From the NCBI RefSeq assembly GCF_013116745.1, contig NZ_JABFOE010000003.1:186001-250000 (forward strand): a stretch of DNA of 64,000 nucleotides, read 5' to 3'. The notes under the pieces are model-generated. The model ran no database searches and was not told the origin of the DNA. It saw nothing but the letters and a program-made list of their open reading frames with translations. Origin of the DNA: Arthrobacter sp. 260 (GTDB taxonomy: Bacteria > Actinomycetota > Actinomycetes > Actinomycetales > Micrococcaceae). The position numbers and the translations under genes were made by a program. The number at the start of each line of letters is the position of its first letter. Position 1 is the stretch's first letter. Below are positions 54,929-64,000 of the stretch, piece after piece.

Positions 54929-55198
54929 TTAGCGTGTGGCCAGCCAGCCGAGGGTGAGACCGCCCATGGTCCGGCGGAATCCGCTCTCGCCGCGGGTTAG
55001 CTCCAGTACTGCCCACAGGCAGAGGCACACCCGGCTGAGGGTTCGCAGCAGCACCCGGTTTTCCTCGCGCAGGGCCATCCGGGAAGCGAGCCCGAAAAGT
55101 GTCCAGCCGAGTACGGGAGCGTTGGGGGCCTGCGCGATGGTCTGTTCTCCACGCGCATTGGTGAAGAAGCTGGGGAGGGATGATCCGGTGTGTGCCAC
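54929..55198 (-). CDS. Small hypothetical protein downstream of ku
   Basis: An 89-residue protein of unknown function with two weakly hydrophobic stretches (VLGWTLFGLA and VCLCLWAVLEL) and a TMGGLTLGWLA end, so possibly membrane-associated. It starts with GTG overlapping the ku stop by 1 bp (TAGTG), so it is translated with ku. The coupling to ku suggests, without proof, a link to DNA repair. Confidence 0.65.
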   Translation of the reverse strand: MAHTGSSLPSFFTNARGEQTIAQAPNAPVLGWTLFGLASRMALREENRVLLRTLSRVCLCLWAVLELTRGESGFRRTMGGLTLGWLATR

Positions 55199-56058
55199 TA
55201 GGCGCCCTTTGCCTTGGATTTGGATGGTGCCTTTTTCGACTCGGTTGTTTTCGAGTCCGACGTGCCCTTTTTCTCGCGATTCTTCTCCACGCTGCGCCGT
55301 AGCGCCTCCATCAGGTCGAGGACCTTCCCGCCGCCGTCGTCGTCACCGGACTCTCCGAAGGTCTCCTCCGTGTCGAGGGCTTCTCCCTTCTCAAGCTTCG
55401 CCTCGATCAGGGTCCGGAGCTGAACCTGGTACTCGTCGGTGAAGTTCTCGGGGTCGAAGTCGGTCGAGAAGGACTCCACCAGCGCGGCGGACATCTCCCT
55501 CTCCTTCGCCGAAATCCGGACCCGCTCGTCAAGGGAGGGGAACTTGGCGTCCCGCACCTCGTCATCCCACAACAGCGACTGCAGCATCAGCACATCGCCG
55601 CGGACCCGCAGTGCACCGAGCCGGCTCTTCTGCCGCAGCGTGAACTGCACAATCGCTGTGCGGTCCGTCTCCTCAAGGGTCCTGCGCAGCAGGACGTACG
55701 CCTTGGTCGATGTCGAATCCGGTTCCAGGAAGTAGGAGCGGTCCAGCATGATCGGGTCGATCTGGTCGCTCGGCACAAACTCGACGACGCCGATTTCCCG
55801 GCTCTTCTCGACGGGGAGCGTCGCAAAGTCCTCCTCGGTGAGCACCACGGTGCGCTCGCCGTCGTCGTACGCCTTATCGATGTTCTTGTACTCGACTACC
55901 TCGCCGCAGATCTCGCAGCGGCGCTGGTAGCGGATCCGGCCGCCGTCCTTGTCGTGGACCTGATGGAGACTAATGTCGTGGTCCTCGGTGGCGCTGTAGA
56001 CCTTGACCGGCACGTTGACCAGCCCAAACGCAACTGCGCCCTTCCAAATGGCTCTCAT
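55198..56058 (-). CDS. ku: Ku protein for non-homologous end joining
   Basis: A 286-residue bacterial Ku. It begins MRAIWKGAVAFGLVNVPVKVYSA, the conserved start; the frame continues upstream but without homology. The central Ku core includes CEICGEVV (zinc-ribbon-like), GVVEFVPSDQIDPIMLDRSYFLEPD and the C-terminal LIEAKLEKGEAL helix. The last 40 residues are Lys/Ser rich, as in Ku proteins that use a basic tail for extra DNA contacts. Ku encircles double-strand ends and recruits LigD, encoded 630 bp away on the opposite strand. Confidence 0.95.
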   Translation of the reverse strand: MRAIWKGAVAFGLVNVPVKVYSATEDHDISLHQVHDKDGGRIRYQRRCEICGEVVEYKNIDKAYDDGERTVVLTEEDFATLPVEKSREIGVVEFVPSDQIDPIMLDRSYFLEPDSTSTKAYVLLRRTLEETDRTAIVQFTLRQKSRLGALRVRGDVLMLQSLLWDDEVRDAKFPSLDERVRISAKEREMSAALVESFSTDFDPENFTDEYQVQLRTLIEAKLEKGEALDTEETFGESGDDDGGGKVLDLMEALRRSVEKNREKKGTSDSKTTESKKAPSKSKAKGA

Positions 56059-56091
56059 GTAACTAGTGAACCAGTGTTTGGGTTCCGCGGA

Positions 56092-56097
56092 TACGAT
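56092..56097 (+). promoter_or_regulatory. Putative -10 element of a leaderless SRPBCC gene
   Basis: TACGAT ends 6 nt before the GTG at 56104, within the 45-bp gap between ku and this gene. No Shine-Dalgarno sequence is present. Confidence 0.4.
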
Positions 56098-56103
56098 GAA
56101 TTG

Positions 56104-56595
56104 GTGAATCCTGAAAAAGCTGAGCCCCTGGTTGCCAAGACGTCGGTGGACGGCAAGCCCGCCCTGTGGTTTGAGATGCGGTACGACTTCCCCGCGTCGG
56201 TGCTCTGGAAGCACCTGACCGATCCGCGGAAGCTGAAGTACTGGTTCCCGTGCGAAATGGACCTGCTGCCACGGAAGGGCGCCGAAGTGACGTTCACCTT
56301 CCCCGGGGAGCGTCCCACCAAGGGCAAGGTCCTCGAGGCGGAGAAGCCGCAGCTCCTCACCTTCACCTGGGACCGCGAGGTGTTGACCTGGACGCTTGAG
56401 GACGACGGCGACAACGGTAGCCGGCTGACCCTCACCAACACCCTCCAGGACCCGGACACTGCGGCAAATGTGGCGGCAGGCTGGCGGTTCACGTTGATCG
56501 GCCTCGACGATCTGCTGAACGAGCGCGCCCTGGGCCAGAACCCGGCCGACTGGGAACGGTACGTGGCGCTCTACCGCGAGCAGTTCACCGACTAA
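56104..56595 (+). CDS. SRPBCC / AHSA1-like domain protein
   Basis: A 163-residue SRPBCC-fold protein (AHSA1/Hsp90-activator-like): ALWFEMRYDFPASVLWKHLTDP, KLKYWFPCEMD, AEVTFTFPGE and the C-terminal helix LIGLDDLLNERAL. The GTG at 56104 is chosen because longer in-frame starts read into the ku coding region; translation is probably leaderless. It is divergent from ku with a shared 45-bp spacer and precedes ligD on the same strand by 91 bp. Function unknown, though such genes often sit near ligD. Confidence 0.85.
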   Translation: MNPEKAEPLVAKTSVDGKPALWFEMRYDFPASVLWKHLTDPRKLKYWFPCEMDLLPRKGAEVTFTFPGERPTKGKVLEAEKPQLLTFTWDREVLTWTLEDDGDNGSRLTLTNTLQDPDTAANVAAGWRFTLIGLDDLLNERALGQNPADWERYVALYREQFTD

Positions 56596-56686
56596 CGCCC
56601 CGCCGCAGAAGCGGTCAGGGGGCTGGACACCCCGGCCTGAACGGACGCGTGTGGAGTTTGCACCGCTTCCGGACAAGACTGGACCC

Positions 56687-59167
56687 ATGGGTTCGAGCAA
56701 AGGCCAGCAGCAACAGACTGTCACAGTGGACGGTCGGCGCCTCCGGCTGACCAGCCTGGACCGCGTGATCTACCCCGACACCGCTACCACCAAGGCCGAT
56801 GTCCTCGCCTACTACGCGGCCATCGCCGACTACCTGATCCCGCACGCCCGGGACCGGGCAGTCACCCGCAAACGCTGGGTCAATGGTGTGGGGACGAAGG
56901 AGAATCCCGGTCAGGTGTTCTTTCAGAAGAACCTGGACCAGTCCGCCCCCGATTGGGTGCAGCGCCACCGAATTTCGCACTCCGACCATGTCAACGTGTA
57001 TCCACTGGTCAACGACCTGGCCACCCTGACCTGGTTGGGACAGATTTCTGCACTGGAGATCCATGTGCCGCAGTGGAGGTTTGGTCCAGGCGGGGAGATC
57101 AGCAACCCCGACCGCATGGTGCTCGACCTCGATCCGGGCGAGGGAGTCAGCCTTGCCGAATGCGCGGAGGTTGCCCGCCACGCCCGCTCAATCCTGCAGG
57201 ATATGGGCCTGAATCCGTACCCAGTCACCAGCGGGTCGAAGGGCATTCACCTGTACGCGGCGCTGGATGGGTCGCAGACCTCCGACGAGGTGTCGACCGT
57301 CGCCCACGAACTGGCCCGGGCGCTTGAGGCCGACCATCCAGACAGTGTGGTCAGCGACATGAAGAAGTCACTCCGCGGCGGCAAGGTCCTGGTCGACTGG
57401 AGCCAGAACAACCGGAACAAGACCACTGTGGCGCCCTACTCCCTGCGTGGGAAGCTCCTTCCGACAGTCGCCGCACCCCGTACCTGGGCGGAAATGGCGG
57501 AACCAGGGCTCGCGCAGATCGACTACCGCCAGATGATGCACCGGGTGCTGGAACTGGGTGACCTGCTGGCTGGATTGGACGGGACACCCTCCGGGACTGG
57601 CGGCGGCCCGGAAACAGGTGAGGATCAGGCAGCGATGGGAGCACCTCCTGCCAATCCCGCCGACCGGTTGAATACGTACCGCTCCATGCGCGACGGCGCG
57701 AAGACCCCGGAGCCGATCCCCGCCGAGGTCGGCGACTCCGGTGGCAACCGGTTCGTCATCCAGGAACACCACGCCCGCCGGCTGCACTATGACTTCCGGC
57801 TGGAGCGCGACGGCGTCCTCGTTTCCTGGGCTGTGCCCAAAGGTCCGCCGGATACCCCGAACAGGAATCACCTCGCTGTTCAGACCGAGGATCACCCACT
57901 GGAATACGCCTCGTTCGAGGGCACCATTCCCAAGGGGGAGTATGGTGCCGGAGAGATGTACATCTGGGACTCCGGCACGTACGAGGCCGAGAAGTGGCGG
58001 GAGGGCAAGGAAGTCATCTGCACCATTCAGGGGCGCGACGACGGCGGGCTGGCCCGGAGCGGCAGCCCGGTGCGGCGGTACGCGCTCATCCACACCGGGG
58101 GAGGCGACGGATCAGGTGAAAGGAACTGGCTGATGCACCTGATGAAGGACCAGGGCGATGGCGGTAGCGCGGCAAACCACCCGATCGACGGCATGGCGAC
58201 CCCGCCTGACCTGACGCCGATGCTGGCTACCCCCGGCAGTGCGGCGGACGTCACCTCCGACCAGGAGTGGGCTTTCGAAATGAAGTGGGACGGCGTGCGG
58301 GCAATCGCCACCGTGACACCGGACGGGGTGCACCTGACCAGCCGGAACGGCAACGACATGACAGCCCTGTATCCCGAACTCGCAGACCTGGGTGACTACG
58401 TCAACGCCGAGAACGCGGTGCTGGATGGCGAAATTGTCGCCCTGAACCGGTCCGGCCGCCCCGATTTCGGGCTCCTGCAGAACCGGTTCAACCTCACCAA
58501 GGCCTCCGAGATTGAGGCTGCCCGCCGGAAAGCCCCGGTGCACTTCATGCTGTTCGACCTGCTCTACCTTGACGGTAACTCCCTGCTACAGCTCCAGTAC
58601 GACCAGCGCCGCGAGATTCTCGAACAGGCAGTGGACAGCCCGGCGGATGGTCACGTCCAGGTGCCGCCAGCCCTCGACGCCACCCTTGAGGAAGCTGTCG
58701 CAGCAAGCAAGGAGCTCGGCCTTGAAGGCGTGATGGCCAAACTCACGCACGGCAGCTACGCCGCCGGACGGCGCTCGCGGGGCTGGATCAAGATCAAGCA
58801 GCAGCTCACCCAGGAGGTGGTGGTGGTCGGCTGGCGTCCTGGCAAGGGCAGCCGGGCGCACAAGGTGGGTTCACTGCTGGTCGCCGTGCCCGACGGCGTC
58901 GACCTGAAGTATGTGGGGCGGGTCGGATCCGGGCTGGCCGAACGCGATCTCGCCGAAATCGGCTCCCGCCTCCGGAAGATGTCCCGGAAAACCGCCCCGC
59001 TGGCCGATGTACCGGCCGCCGACGCCTCGGATGCGCACTGGGTGCGCCCCGCACTGGTGGGGGAGGTCCAGTTCAGTGAACGCACCGACGGCGGGAAACT
59101 CCGCCACCCCGTCTGGCGCGGCTGGCGACCCGACAAACGGCCGTCCGACGTCGTCGTCGAACTGTAG
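56687..59167 (+). CDS. ligD: Multifunctional DNA ligase D (polymerase-phosphoesterase-ligase order)
   Basis: An 826-residue ATP-dependent ligase of bacterial NHEJ with the mycobacterial domain order. The polymerase/primase (AEP) domain is at about 15-290, with LDLDP (D147, D149) and TSGSKGIHLY. The 3'-phosphoesterase domain is at about 345-480, with FVIQEHHARRLHYDFRLE and HPLEYASFEG. The ligase domain is at about 510-810, with the nucleophile K533 in EMKWDGVR and the OB-fold motif at the end. Pseudomonas LigD has the opposite order. The ATG at 56687 is preferred to a GTG at 56651, which adds 12 residues not typical of the family; neither has a clear Shine-Dalgarno site. Confidence 0.95.
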   Translation: MGSSKGQQQQTVTVDGRRLRLTSLDRVIYPDTATTKADVLAYYAAIADYLIPHARDRAVTRKRWVNGVGTKENPGQVFFQKNLDQSAPDWVQRHRISHSDHVNVYPLVNDLATLTWLGQISALEIHVPQWRFGPGGEISNPDRMVLDLDPGEGVSLAECAEVARHARSILQDMGLNPYPVTSGSKGIHLYAALDGSQTSDEVSTVAHELARALEADHPDSVVSDMKKSLRGGKVLVDWSQNNRNKTTVAPYSLRGKLLPTVAAPRTWAEMAEPGLAQIDYRQMMHRVLELGDLLAGLDGTPSGTGGGPETGEDQAAMGAPPANPADRLNTYRSMRDGAKTPEPIPAEVGDSGGNRFVIQEHHARRLHYDFRLERDGVLVSWAVPKGPPDTPNRNHLAVQTEDHPLEYASFEGTIPKGEYGAGEMYIWDSGTYEAEKWREGKEVICTIQGRDDGGLARSGSPVRRYALIHTGGGDGSGERNWLMHLMKDQGDGGSAANHPIDGMATPPDLTPMLATPGSAADVTSDQEWAFEMKWDGVRAIATVTPDGVHLTSRNGNDMTALYPELADLGDYVNAENAVLDGEIVALNRSGRPDFGLLQNRFNLTKASEIEAARRKAPVHFMLFDLLYLDGNSLLQLQYDQRREILEQAVDSPADGHVQVPPALDATLEEAVAASKELGLEGVMAKLTHGSYAAGRRSRGWIKIKQQLTQEVVVVGWRPGKGSRAHKVGSLLVAVPDGVDLKYVGRVGSGLAERDLAEIGSRLRKMSRKTAPLADVPAADASDAHWVRPALVGEVQFSERTDGGKLRHPVWRGWRPDKRPSDVVVEL

Positions 59168-61438: not shown

Positions 61439-63547
61439 TCACCGATCGATGAAGTCGGCCGTCGCCCGGAGGAACGATGCCGCTGCACGGGCACGTGCAG
61501 CGGCATCCTCTGCGGCGGCGGTCGGAGCGCTTGCAGCCGCCTCTACCGGGCGCTGGCCGTCCAGGGTGGGTGCCGGTGCGGTCAGGGGTGCCAGGAACGT
61601 CCTGGCCGAGGCTGCCGCTGGACCGTAGGAGTATGGGTTCTGCCGTGGCTGGTGCGAGAACGACTCCAGCACCTTGGTCAGGAAATCACCGTTGGTCACC
61701 CTCAGGGCGCTGGGAGCCACCAGCAGGCTAGCCGCAACGGTGAAGTCTCCGTGTCCGCCGGTCTCATAGGCCACCTCGTCCGGCCTGCAGGCACTGAAAA
61801 GCAGTTCGCGGGCATTGGCTCGCGGACCACCGTTCACAGGGGTTCCACGCCGCAACCTGAAATTTGCCGTGGTTGTCTCATCGGGCACCAGGAACCGGGC
61901 GCGCCGGCCATGGTCGGCGGCCCGCTCGGCGCCGTCGGCCACTGTCGAGCTCAAGGACGGCAGCAGCCGGGTGCCGTCGCCGGAATGGCAGGAATCGAAG
62001 AAGGCGGTCAGGTTGACCCCCTCAGGCAGTAGATCGAAGATCTCCCCGAGGTCATCGTCGATGATCAGGTTCCCGTCCTGGAAGTCCACTGGACACAGGG
62101 CCTCGTCGTGGAGCTTCTCGGCGTTTCCCTCTTCCTTTTCGTCGCCATCCAGATCGTCGACATACGTTCCGTGCCCCGCATACTGCACCACCAGGACGTC
62201 CCCTGCGGCGCTGTGGCTGACCAGGTCAAAAATTCCCTGCAGTATGTTGACCCGGGTCGCCTGCGCATCGAGGAGGGTGGTCACTTCGAAGCCCACCGAC
62301 TCCAACTGGCTGCCCCAGGCCTGTGCGTCGGCCACGCAGCCGAAGAGCTCGCTTCCCGGCGGGTACGCGTTGATCCCGATGCACAGCGCCCGACGGGCAT
62401 TACCCCGCGCCAGCTCGGCGGTGGGGGCGGCATTGACCAACGGCTCGTCAAGGGTCCGGGCGGCGCCGAAGGGTTTCGGCTTTTTGCCGGTCACCCGGCG
62501 GGCGACGCTCTCCATGGTGGCGGCATCATCGTCAAACCCGCCGTGCGATGTGGCGGTGCTGCGATGTGTTTCCGGACCGCTTCGGGTGACCGACCAGATC
62601 ACCTCTGCCTTGGCCGTGTCCCCCTCGACGCCGAAGAACTTCCGTAGCTCCGGGTCGGTGTTAACGCATTCCTGGAGTCCGAGGATGGGTGTGAATTCTT
62701 CTTTTTCGAAGGACGCCCGAACCAGGTACAACAGGGACTTGCCGTAGAGGACGCCGCCGACGGTATCGTCCAGTTCAGTCTGCTGCTTCATGGTGAACAT
62801 GGCCAGGGACTTGATGCCCTTCCCCACCTCGGGTACCAGCCGCGCCTTGAACGTGTCAGTGCGGACTGCTGGGGCCAACAGGTTCAGTGACGTGAATTCC
62901 GGCAGGCCAGCCCGCAACGCGGCCGGCACGAAATAGGAATGGAAGATGGACCCGGCGCTGTGCCCGACGGCGTGCACGGTGGTCTTTGGATTCGCGGCCA
63001 CGTATTTCCCGAGGGCCTGTGCCACGTACAGCGCCCCACCACCGGCGGCCGATGCGACCTCGGCGAAGCGCTTCATTTCACCCCAGATCCGTTCGCCGCC
63101 GGCAGCTCGTGCAGTGAGTTCGACAGCCCTGTCTTTCAGGTCACCCACCACGCCGCGGGCGCCGGGAAGGGCGCCGAAGAGGGCGTCGAGGAATCCGGTC
63201 TCCCAGACGAAGAAGATCGGGTACACGCCGTTCGCTGTCCACCACTCGCGCTGCCGGTGCGCGGACCGCAGTCCTGACGACTCGCTGACCAGCCCGCCGT
63301 GCGCGTAGATCACGATCGGCACCCCGGTCCTGGCTGCGGCGAAAGCCGGCAGATGCTGCTCAAAGATGGCATCGACGTCCGCGGCAGTGGTGCTGATCTC
63401 GCCCCCGGAGGAGAACTTTCCGCGGCTCAGGTTCACAACATGCGGCTTCAGCAAAGCGAGCTGTTCAGCACTCAGGCCCGACCCTCGCGCAGCGGCGACA
63501 GACGCAGCAGATTCCGCAGTGGTGGACTCCATCGTCCTGGGCTCCAT
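61439..63547 (-). CDS. Fusion of an alpha/beta hydrolase to a caspase-type (C14) peptidase
   Basis: A 702-residue two-domain protein with no signal peptide. Residues about 75-330 resemble a serine hydrolase: oxyanion segment YAHGG (81-85) and nucleophile elbow GHSAGS with S197. Residues about 385-640 are a caspase/metacaspase-type domain: NARRALCIGINAYPPG opens it, the catalytic His is H459 in YAGHGTYVDDLDGDE, and the catalytic Cys is C520 in FFDSCHSGD. The tail is Ala/Thr-rich. The start at 63547 has GAGGAG 5 nt upstream. It may act in regulated proteolysis, stress or defence; that is inference. It is divergent from the gene at 63761. Confidence 0.88.
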   Translation of the reverse strand: MEPRTMESTTAESAASVAAARGSGLSAEQLALLKPHVVNLSRGKFSSGGEISTTAADVDAIFEQHLPAFAAARTGVPIVIYAHGGLVSESSGLRSAHRQREWWTANGVYPIFFVWETGFLDALFGALPGARGVVGDLKDRAVELTARAAGGERIWGEMKRFAEVASAAGGGALYVAQALGKYVAANPKTTVHAVGHSAGSIFHSYFVPAALRAGLPEFTSLNLLAPAVRTDTFKARLVPEVGKGIKSLAMFTMKQQTELDDTVGGVLYGKSLLYLVRASFEKEEFTPILGLQECVNTDPELRKFFGVEGDTAKAEVIWSVTRSGPETHRSTATSHGGFDDDAATMESVARRVTGKKPKPFGAARTLDEPLVNAAPTAELARGNARRALCIGINAYPPGSELFGCVADAQAWGSQLESVGFEVTTLLDAQATRVNILQGIFDLVSHSAAGDVLVVQYAGHGTYVDDLDGDEKEEGNAEKLHDEALCPVDFQDGNLIIDDDLGEIFDLLPEGVNLTAFFDSCHSGDGTRLLPSLSSTVADGAERAADHGRRARFLVPDETTTANFRLRRGTPVNGGPRANARELLFSACRPDEVAYETGGHGDFTVAASLLVAPSALRVTNGDFLTKVLESFSHQPRQNPYSYGPAAASARTFLAPLTAPAPTLDGQRPVEAAASAPTAAAEDAAARARAAASFLRATADFIDR

Positions 63548-63653
63548 GGCTACTCCTCGGTGAGAACTGTCGGCTGGTACTGCCACTACGCCCGGCGCGG
63601 TGGCTGCCAGTATCAGTCCGAGCCTGTTACTGGGGCGTTACTGGGGGTTTGCC

Positions 63654-63682
63654 TTGACGCTGCGTTTGCCGCGCGGGATATT
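63654..63682 (+). promoter_or_regulatory. Putative promoter of the gene at the right edge
   Basis: TTGACG (63654-63659) and GATATT (63677-63682) are 17 bp apart, leaving an untranslated leader of about 70 nt before the ATG at 63761. Confidence 0.5.
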
Positions 63683-63760
63683 TCTCCTACCTGTTCGACG
63701 GGTCGCCGGGGACCGCAGGGAATCCCGCGGGCCGACGGCGGGTGATAGGGAGGGAACCAG

Positions 63761-64000
63761 ATGGCAGGCGTGATGCTCGGTCCCGGCAGTCACACGGGGG
63801 AGTTGCGCCCCCTCACGATCCTGGCCGAGGGTCCTTTCACTGTGGGCCCGGATGGTCCGATGACGACGACGCTGCGGGTGCCAGTGGAGCGCATCGGTGG
63901 CGGACCGCGGGGTGCACGGTTCGACGTCGTCGTCCGCGGCCAACGGGGTAAGCCGCTTGACCTGCTGCTTGGGGATGAGACCGACCCGTGGATGCTGATG
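63761..64000 (+). CDS. Unknown protein, N-terminal 80 residues only (cut by window edge)
   Basis: Open from the ATG at 63761 to the end of the window without a stop. GGAGGG precedes the ATG at a good distance. The visible part starts MAGVMLGPGSHTGELR and contains an Arg/Gly-rich stretch (VERIGGGPRGARFDVVVRGQ) followed by LDLLLGDETDPWMLM. I do not recognise a family. Its divergent position from the hydrolase-caspase fusion gene, with only 213 bp between the two starts, suggests they could be functionally linked. Confidence 0.75.
   Translation, partial: MAGVMLGPGSHTGELRPLTILAEGPFTVGPDGPMTTTLRVPVERIGGGPRGARFDVVVRGQRGKPLDLLLGDETDPWMLM

Follow-up and report, generated by a model that had tools for sequence, protein, structure and literature searches.

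The window analysed here is the whole stretch of 64,000 nucleotides from the soil bacterium Arthrobacter sp. 260, near the end of which (61439..63547, minus strand) a gene encodes a hydrolase-metacaspase fusion protein of 702 aa, termed HC in the following. Its α/β-hydrolase-type domain (residues 33-352; 62492..63451, minus strand) contains a predicted triad of S197 (62957-62959), D261 (62765-62767), and H335 (62543-62545), roles that conservation and topology suggest. Between it and the metacaspase domain lies a linker (residues 353-384; 62396..62491) that evolves fast and contains basic residues. The metacaspase domain (residues 385-640; 61628..62395) carries the dyad H459 (62171-62173) and C520 (61988-61990) together with the predicted acidic S1 residues D407 and D518. 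The C-terminal tail (61442..61627) ends in a helix (677-700) that the structure model predicted with low confidence; all these features lie on the minus strand. The open reading frame is real. Compared with three close relatives, both domains are under purifying selection and the linker between them is looser. Purifying selection also acts on the two other genes of the cassette, F1 and Casp2. F1, separated from HC by a divergent intergenic region (63548..63760), occupies 63761..64000 on the plus strand, runs past the window end to L003:7414, and encodes a gluzincin-type zinc protease of 550 aa with the motif HEVTH and later E, D, and H. Casp2, the third gene, encodes a stand-alone type-2 metacaspase. 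By eye, the intergenic region contains a promoter-like sequence of the vegetative type towards F1 (TTGACG at 63654-63659, 17 bases, GATATT at 63677-63682), which is found at equal spacing in L004 and L005. Just upstream of it lies a direct repeat (GTTACTG twice, 63626-63643, 11 bases from start to start), whose spacing, again judged by eye, is the same in L004 and, with one mismatch, in L005. Near the cassette (window 55198-59167), reading of the open reading frames also pointed to genes resembling those for Ku and LigD of non-homologous end joining.

Both domains that the first-pass annotation had assigned to HC are present with intact catalytic residues, and those it had named (S197, H459, and C520) are the correct ones. 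The Peptidase_C14 caspase fold is secure, as judged by Pfam, a sequence search of the PDB, and the structure model; the matches listed by a fold search via the HC model were filled by caspases. In aligned relatives, H459 is kept in 32 of 33 caspase domains and C520 in all of them, as are D407 and D518 (33/33), from which specificity for Arg or Lys is predicted. Structure prediction also bore out the strand order of the hydrolase, with the nucleophile elbow and the Ser-Asp-His triad following strands 5, 7, and 8, but the loops bearing Asp and His were modelled with a pLDDT below 50. Ser and His are retained in all 49 hydrolase copies aligned and Asp in 48, irrespective of whether the hydrolase stands alone or is fused to a papain-like domain. 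The hydrolase domain of HC has no Pfam match, and the hydrolase profile reached gastric lipase only at an E value of 0.85. Each of seven hydrolase Pfams was weakly matched by 1-3 of 34 members (best E 0.0023), and one papain-linked copy matched Abhydrolase_3 at E 2.8e-4, below the cut-off. This hydrolase family has no model of its own and escapes Pfam-based annotation; that the HC hydrolase is a lipase is inferred from its elbow.

HC is an accessory gene, not the housekeeping gene that would have spoken against the earlier interpretation. The full hydrolase-caspase was found in 4 of 38 genomes of the genus, and the comparison of gene neighbourhoods proposed at that time revealed a site that is empty or differently filled in congeners. 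In the window and three relatives, the cassette HC-F1-Casp2 sits in the interval between flotillin and RelA/SpoT. The interval from an AHSA1-type gene to RelA/SpoT contains other genes or none in 14 congeners, and the flotillin-RelA/SpoT interval of 7 further congeners is without a match to HC, F1, or Casp2. The idea that flotillin is a meaningful partner had to be abandoned: 36 of the 38 genomes carry it, mostly elsewhere in the genome, and in congener G004 it lies about 20 bases from RelA/SpoT with no cassette between them. One observation speaks for flotillin, namely, that G293, from another family, has a divergent flotillin (42%) one gene from HC. RelA/SpoT was rejected as a partner as well, since all 38 genomes of the genus have it. 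The RelA/SpoT-domain protein adjoining the cassette (L003:8377-9483, minus strand) matches the PADLOC candidate PDC-S33 at E 2e-9. For the cassette itself, PADLOC returned only the generic caspase model for HC and Casp2, and none for F1.

The overall distribution is patchy. Among 295 relatives, 31 matched HC at E ≤ 1e-40, some by the hydrolase part alone. Matches were found in 5 of 396 genomes across the phylum (the window's own included) and in 12 of 299 in the phylum of Nitrosomonas (Nitrosomonas included). Short peptide patterns taken from HC identified seven loci in the species-genome collection: two from Arthrobacter and one each from Agromyces, Nitrosomonas, a Desulfobulbaceae MAG, a Luteitalea MAG, and Marinobacterium. 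An origin from phages or plasmids was considered and rejected. The hydrolase domain was unmatched in 50,697 phage records, and none of the 10 stretches that matched a pattern in a scan of viral contigs encodes a relative. One of the 79 plasmid records matching the query did so over at least 80% of its length; this is a cyanobacterial plasmid (Kovacikia), which carries a full relative. Several others among the plasmid matches listed are annotated C1 peptidases of rhizobial and burkholderial plasmids, the hydrolase part of which matches.

The proteases joined to this hydrolase vary. In a tree of 49 hydrolases, 17 are fused to a type-1 caspase, 7 to a type-2 caspase, 12 to a papain-like domain, and 13 are unfused; many rows are close relatives, so the counts are not independent events, and the hydrolase genes of L046 (G196) and L061 (G138) were missed by the simple custom gene caller and are outside the 49. 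The papain assignment stems from Pfam in 10 rows (L106 below and L103 at the cut-off) and from alignment in L066 and L067. By eye, Cys, His, and Asn are kept in 11 of the 12, the twelfth (L067) being cut by a contig end. The 33 caspase rows fall into two clades, type-1 and type-2, parted by a branch with a support of 100. Fusions to the hydrolase occur in each clade, and the stand-alone Casp2 proteins encoded beside F1 belong to type-2. These were quick trees with SH-aLRT support only, from which no row was dropped by length limits; the caspase tree carries a long-branch warning (L010 and L008) and leaves out the separate caspases, below the cut-off, that are encoded next to two unfused hydrolases (L101 and L113). 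Judging from the caspase tree, the hydrolase was joined to both caspase lineages, or one caspase replaced the other.

Peptidoglycan-cutting domains precede this core in some bacteria. Amidase_2 is N-terminal to the hydrolase-caspase in six proteins (L006, L007, L009, L010, L104, and L105) and, by reading, in that of Kovacikia; the zinc-ligand pattern is kept in all six, as judged by eye. For this pattern, as for the papain-like Cys, His, and Asn, we take the meaning known from other proteins to apply here. An N-acetylmuramidase domain precedes the papain-hydrolase of L106, as do PG-binding and GH19-like matches in L110 (GH19-like below the cut-off). HC itself has no wall-cutting domain according to a Pfam search. 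The gene following the amidase-hydrolase-caspase gene of L104 (L104:10744-12120) encodes a T6SS Tle1-like phospholipase, and upstream a multi-domain kinase and two response regulators are encoded.

In L043-L045, three genomes from a single genus, the hydrolase-caspase has as its neighbour a gene whose product groups with a CHAT/DUF7363 protein; Pfam was run on L044 alone, and only a short piece was called in L043. In Agromyces (L008), a protein of 1927 aa combines the hydrolase-caspase module with DUF7363 and CHAT, and the catalytic His of its caspase is replaced by Gln. Its gene is preceded by one that is AAA/MoxR-like, one for caspase-VMAP-C, and one for another α/β hydrolase, which is the order published for VMAP ternary systems and puts it in the position of the vWA effector; the MoxR model scored below the cut-off, and vWA is named from gene order and an N-terminal motif only. 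Some stand-alone hydrolases adjoin ordinary genes (acyl-CoA dehydrogenase, YdcZ exporter), which would suit a milder role. Four genomes that share a genus (L060, L062, L063, and L064) have such a gene (L060:7790-9984) starting at the end of the preceding one, a YdcZ-type exporter according to Pfam on L060 only. Papain-hydrolase fusions have as neighbours members of a protein family with hydrophobic segments (F21, about 340-400 aa; no Pfam above the cut-off in the one member tested), which also occurs at a distance of three genes from a stand-alone hydrolase (L065, L066, L067, L058, and L059).

F1 has no Pfam family match, and its structure model reached a pLDDT of 39.2. A weak alignment to thermolysin (E 0.35) covers its active site, with HExxH, ExxxD, and a His further on. 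H176, E177, H180, E204, D208, and H280 are invariant in 16 of 16 sequences, the role of H280 being a putative one. When the 295 genomes were scanned for F1, 19 had matches, 17 of them full-length and two remote (G196 and G227). The full-length F1 genes lie beside a hydrolase-caspase in 12 cases, beside a stand-alone caspase in four, and beside neither in one. F1 is present in 16 of the 31 genomes with a hydrolase match versus 3 of the 264 without (Fisher p 2e-15, inflated by relatedness). In Nitrosomonas, the Desulfobulbaceae MAG, the Luteitalea MAG, Marinobacterium, and the cyanobacterial plasmid, F1 is the next gene after the fusion, in the same orientation, and the first four of these genomes contain exactly one F1, beside the hydrolase-caspase; the Agromyces genome, the fifth examined, has none. 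The pair HC-F1 recurs in five phyla. The F1 gene of the Kovacikia plasmid (L115:9522-11445) reads as two overlapping frames and may be broken or contain a sequencing error. The true partner of HC is F1, on the side opposite to flotillin.

The best reading of HC is that of an effector or a proteolytically gated enzyme. Within the accessory cassette of HC, F1, and Casp2, the hydrolase may act on the envelope as a protease-controlled output leading to growth arrest or lysis, a proposal that we prefer but hold tentatively. The cassette as a whole may be a protease-controlled switch for self-destruction or defence. HC would be synthesized as a latent cytosolic protein. A signal, perceived by F1, Casp2, or the metacaspase itself, would trigger cleavage after Arg or Lys, e.g., in the basic, fast-evolving linker, and the hydrolase, presumably a lipase or esterase with the cell envelope as its target, would be freed or activated to cause growth arrest or lysis. 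That the intact hydrolase is constant while the attached protease varies favours the hydrolase as the output and proteolysis as the control. Release by cleavage is suggested by the basic linker, by an S1 pocket of the Arg/Lys type, and by the adjacency of F1 and caspase, and the versions with peptidoglycan amidase or muramidase would fit an output that dismantles the envelope.

A more far-reaching extension, which has to be called doubtful, is a widespread, undescribed death or defence relay. A single unnamed α/β-hydrolase family would supply the lytic output shared by several unrelated proteases (papain-like ones, two metacaspase lineages, and perhaps CHAT), with a dedicated thermolysin-like zinc protease upstream or downstream and peptidoglycan-cutting domains added in some bacteria. 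A cascade from CHAT to caspase operates in type III CRISPR. The position of the Agromyces module, with its His-to-Gln caspase, in a vWA effector slot counts for the preferred reading of the cassette given above, as do, weakly, the linkers, which are non-empty in 21 of 24 fused proteins and contain at least one K or R in all 21. Counting against that preferred reading, F1-Casp2 is far from the hydrolase-caspase in two of the three g7 genomes, and the F1 of the third (G166) has no caspase gene as a neighbour. The remote F1-like genes of G196 and G227 adjoin no caspase either, and no F1 is found next to the hydrolase-caspase in L104, L105, L042, and L008. Furthermore, a signal-less amidase in the cytosol would need help to reach the wall, and phage relatives of the hydrolase were absent from the records searched.

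Other explanations compete with this reading. The cassette could belong to ordinary physiology as a regulated module for processing or turnover, serving lipid or envelope maintenance or stress adaptation with no part in death or defence. The purifying selection on all three genes, the vegetative-type promoter-like sequence before F1, and the stand-alone hydrolases beside metabolic genes would agree with this; the scattered occurrence (4 of 38 congeners and, across the phylum, 5 of 396 genomes), the swapping of partners, and the homology with part of a conflict locus argue against it and make it unlikely. A bacteriolytic weapon or scavenging enzyme directed at other cells, i.e., a multi-enzyme protein released by lysis, injection, or a signal-less route to cut the wall, lipid, and protein of neighbours, is rather unlikely. 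The wall-cutting domains joined to the same protease-hydrolase core and the Tle1-like gene in L104 would suit it, and a lipase-amidase-caspase protein was termed a seemingly destructive weapon in a survey (Asplund-Samuelsson et al, 2012; PMC3501461). However, by hydropathy, HC, F1, and the amidase fusions L006 and L007 have no strongly hydrophobic segment, no secretion or immunity gene was found among the small sample of neighbours scanned with Pfam, and the window's HC has no wall domain.

Two further alternatives assign other roles to the domains. It is improbable that the protease is the effector and the hydrolase its regulator, which would bind a lipid or acyl signal. A single chain with two enzymatic domains is compatible with either direction, but Ser, His, and Asp are kept even in copies without an attached protease, and the VMAP-type copy (L008) has lost the caspase His. 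Less probable still is a sensory wall-cutting domain that binds peptidoglycan fragments and turns on protease and hydrolase, as in peptidoglycan-recognition immunity: the N-terminal position of Amidase_2, shared by the muramidase and PG-binding domains of two papain versions, would be suitable for a sensor, but the amidase retains the zinc-ligand pattern that we take to mark a working enzyme, and HC would need another sensor. If the hydrolase is indeed the lytic output of proteolytic switches, many bacterial caspases would share one testable effector, and HC, F1, and Casp2 would form a small, defined cassette for reconstituting a relay of caspase and zinc protease.

In the literature searched, which included few subscription papers, no description was found of the hydrolase family, of its exchange between caspase and papain, or of the link between F1 and caspase. 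What is already known, from the sections considered of two papers, is the association of caspases with α/β hydrolases in conflict systems (Kaur et al, 2020; PMC7159879) and with amidases (PMC3501461). The former pairs were published for VMAP-MoxR-vWA ternary systems, so that the earlier description of a lipase/esterase-like domain as an uncommon partner was only partly right. The window resembles these systems in having a caspase beside an α/β hydrolase, and L008 holds HC's own module in the vWA position of the published gene order; it differs in that hydrolase and caspase form one chain and the partner is F1, and VMAP, MoxR, and vWA were absent from the six window neighbours scanned, adjacent genes included. 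A common family with the separate VMAP-associated hydrolase of L008 was rejected (hhalign probability 0.8%, no sequence support). A constant partner gene is also a property of the two-gene EACC1-caspase systems (PMC7159879), but HC has no NCBIfam match and Casp2 scored 33.7 bits against the EACC1-type cut-off of 140. The four Amidase_2-metacaspase proteins listed in the 2012 survey resemble the six amidase fusions, in which, however, a hydrolase without a Pfam model lies between amidase and caspase; neither this hydrolase nor F1 is mentioned in the sections of the survey considered. F1 shares HExxH, ExxxD, and the later His with thermolysin-like gluzincins (M4), from which it differs by its long unique flanks and its lack of a Pfam family. 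HC has the fold, the His-Cys dyad, and the acidic S1 residues of metacaspases and orthocaspases; unlike these, it has a serine-hydrolase domain in the same chain and a zinc protease as its partner.
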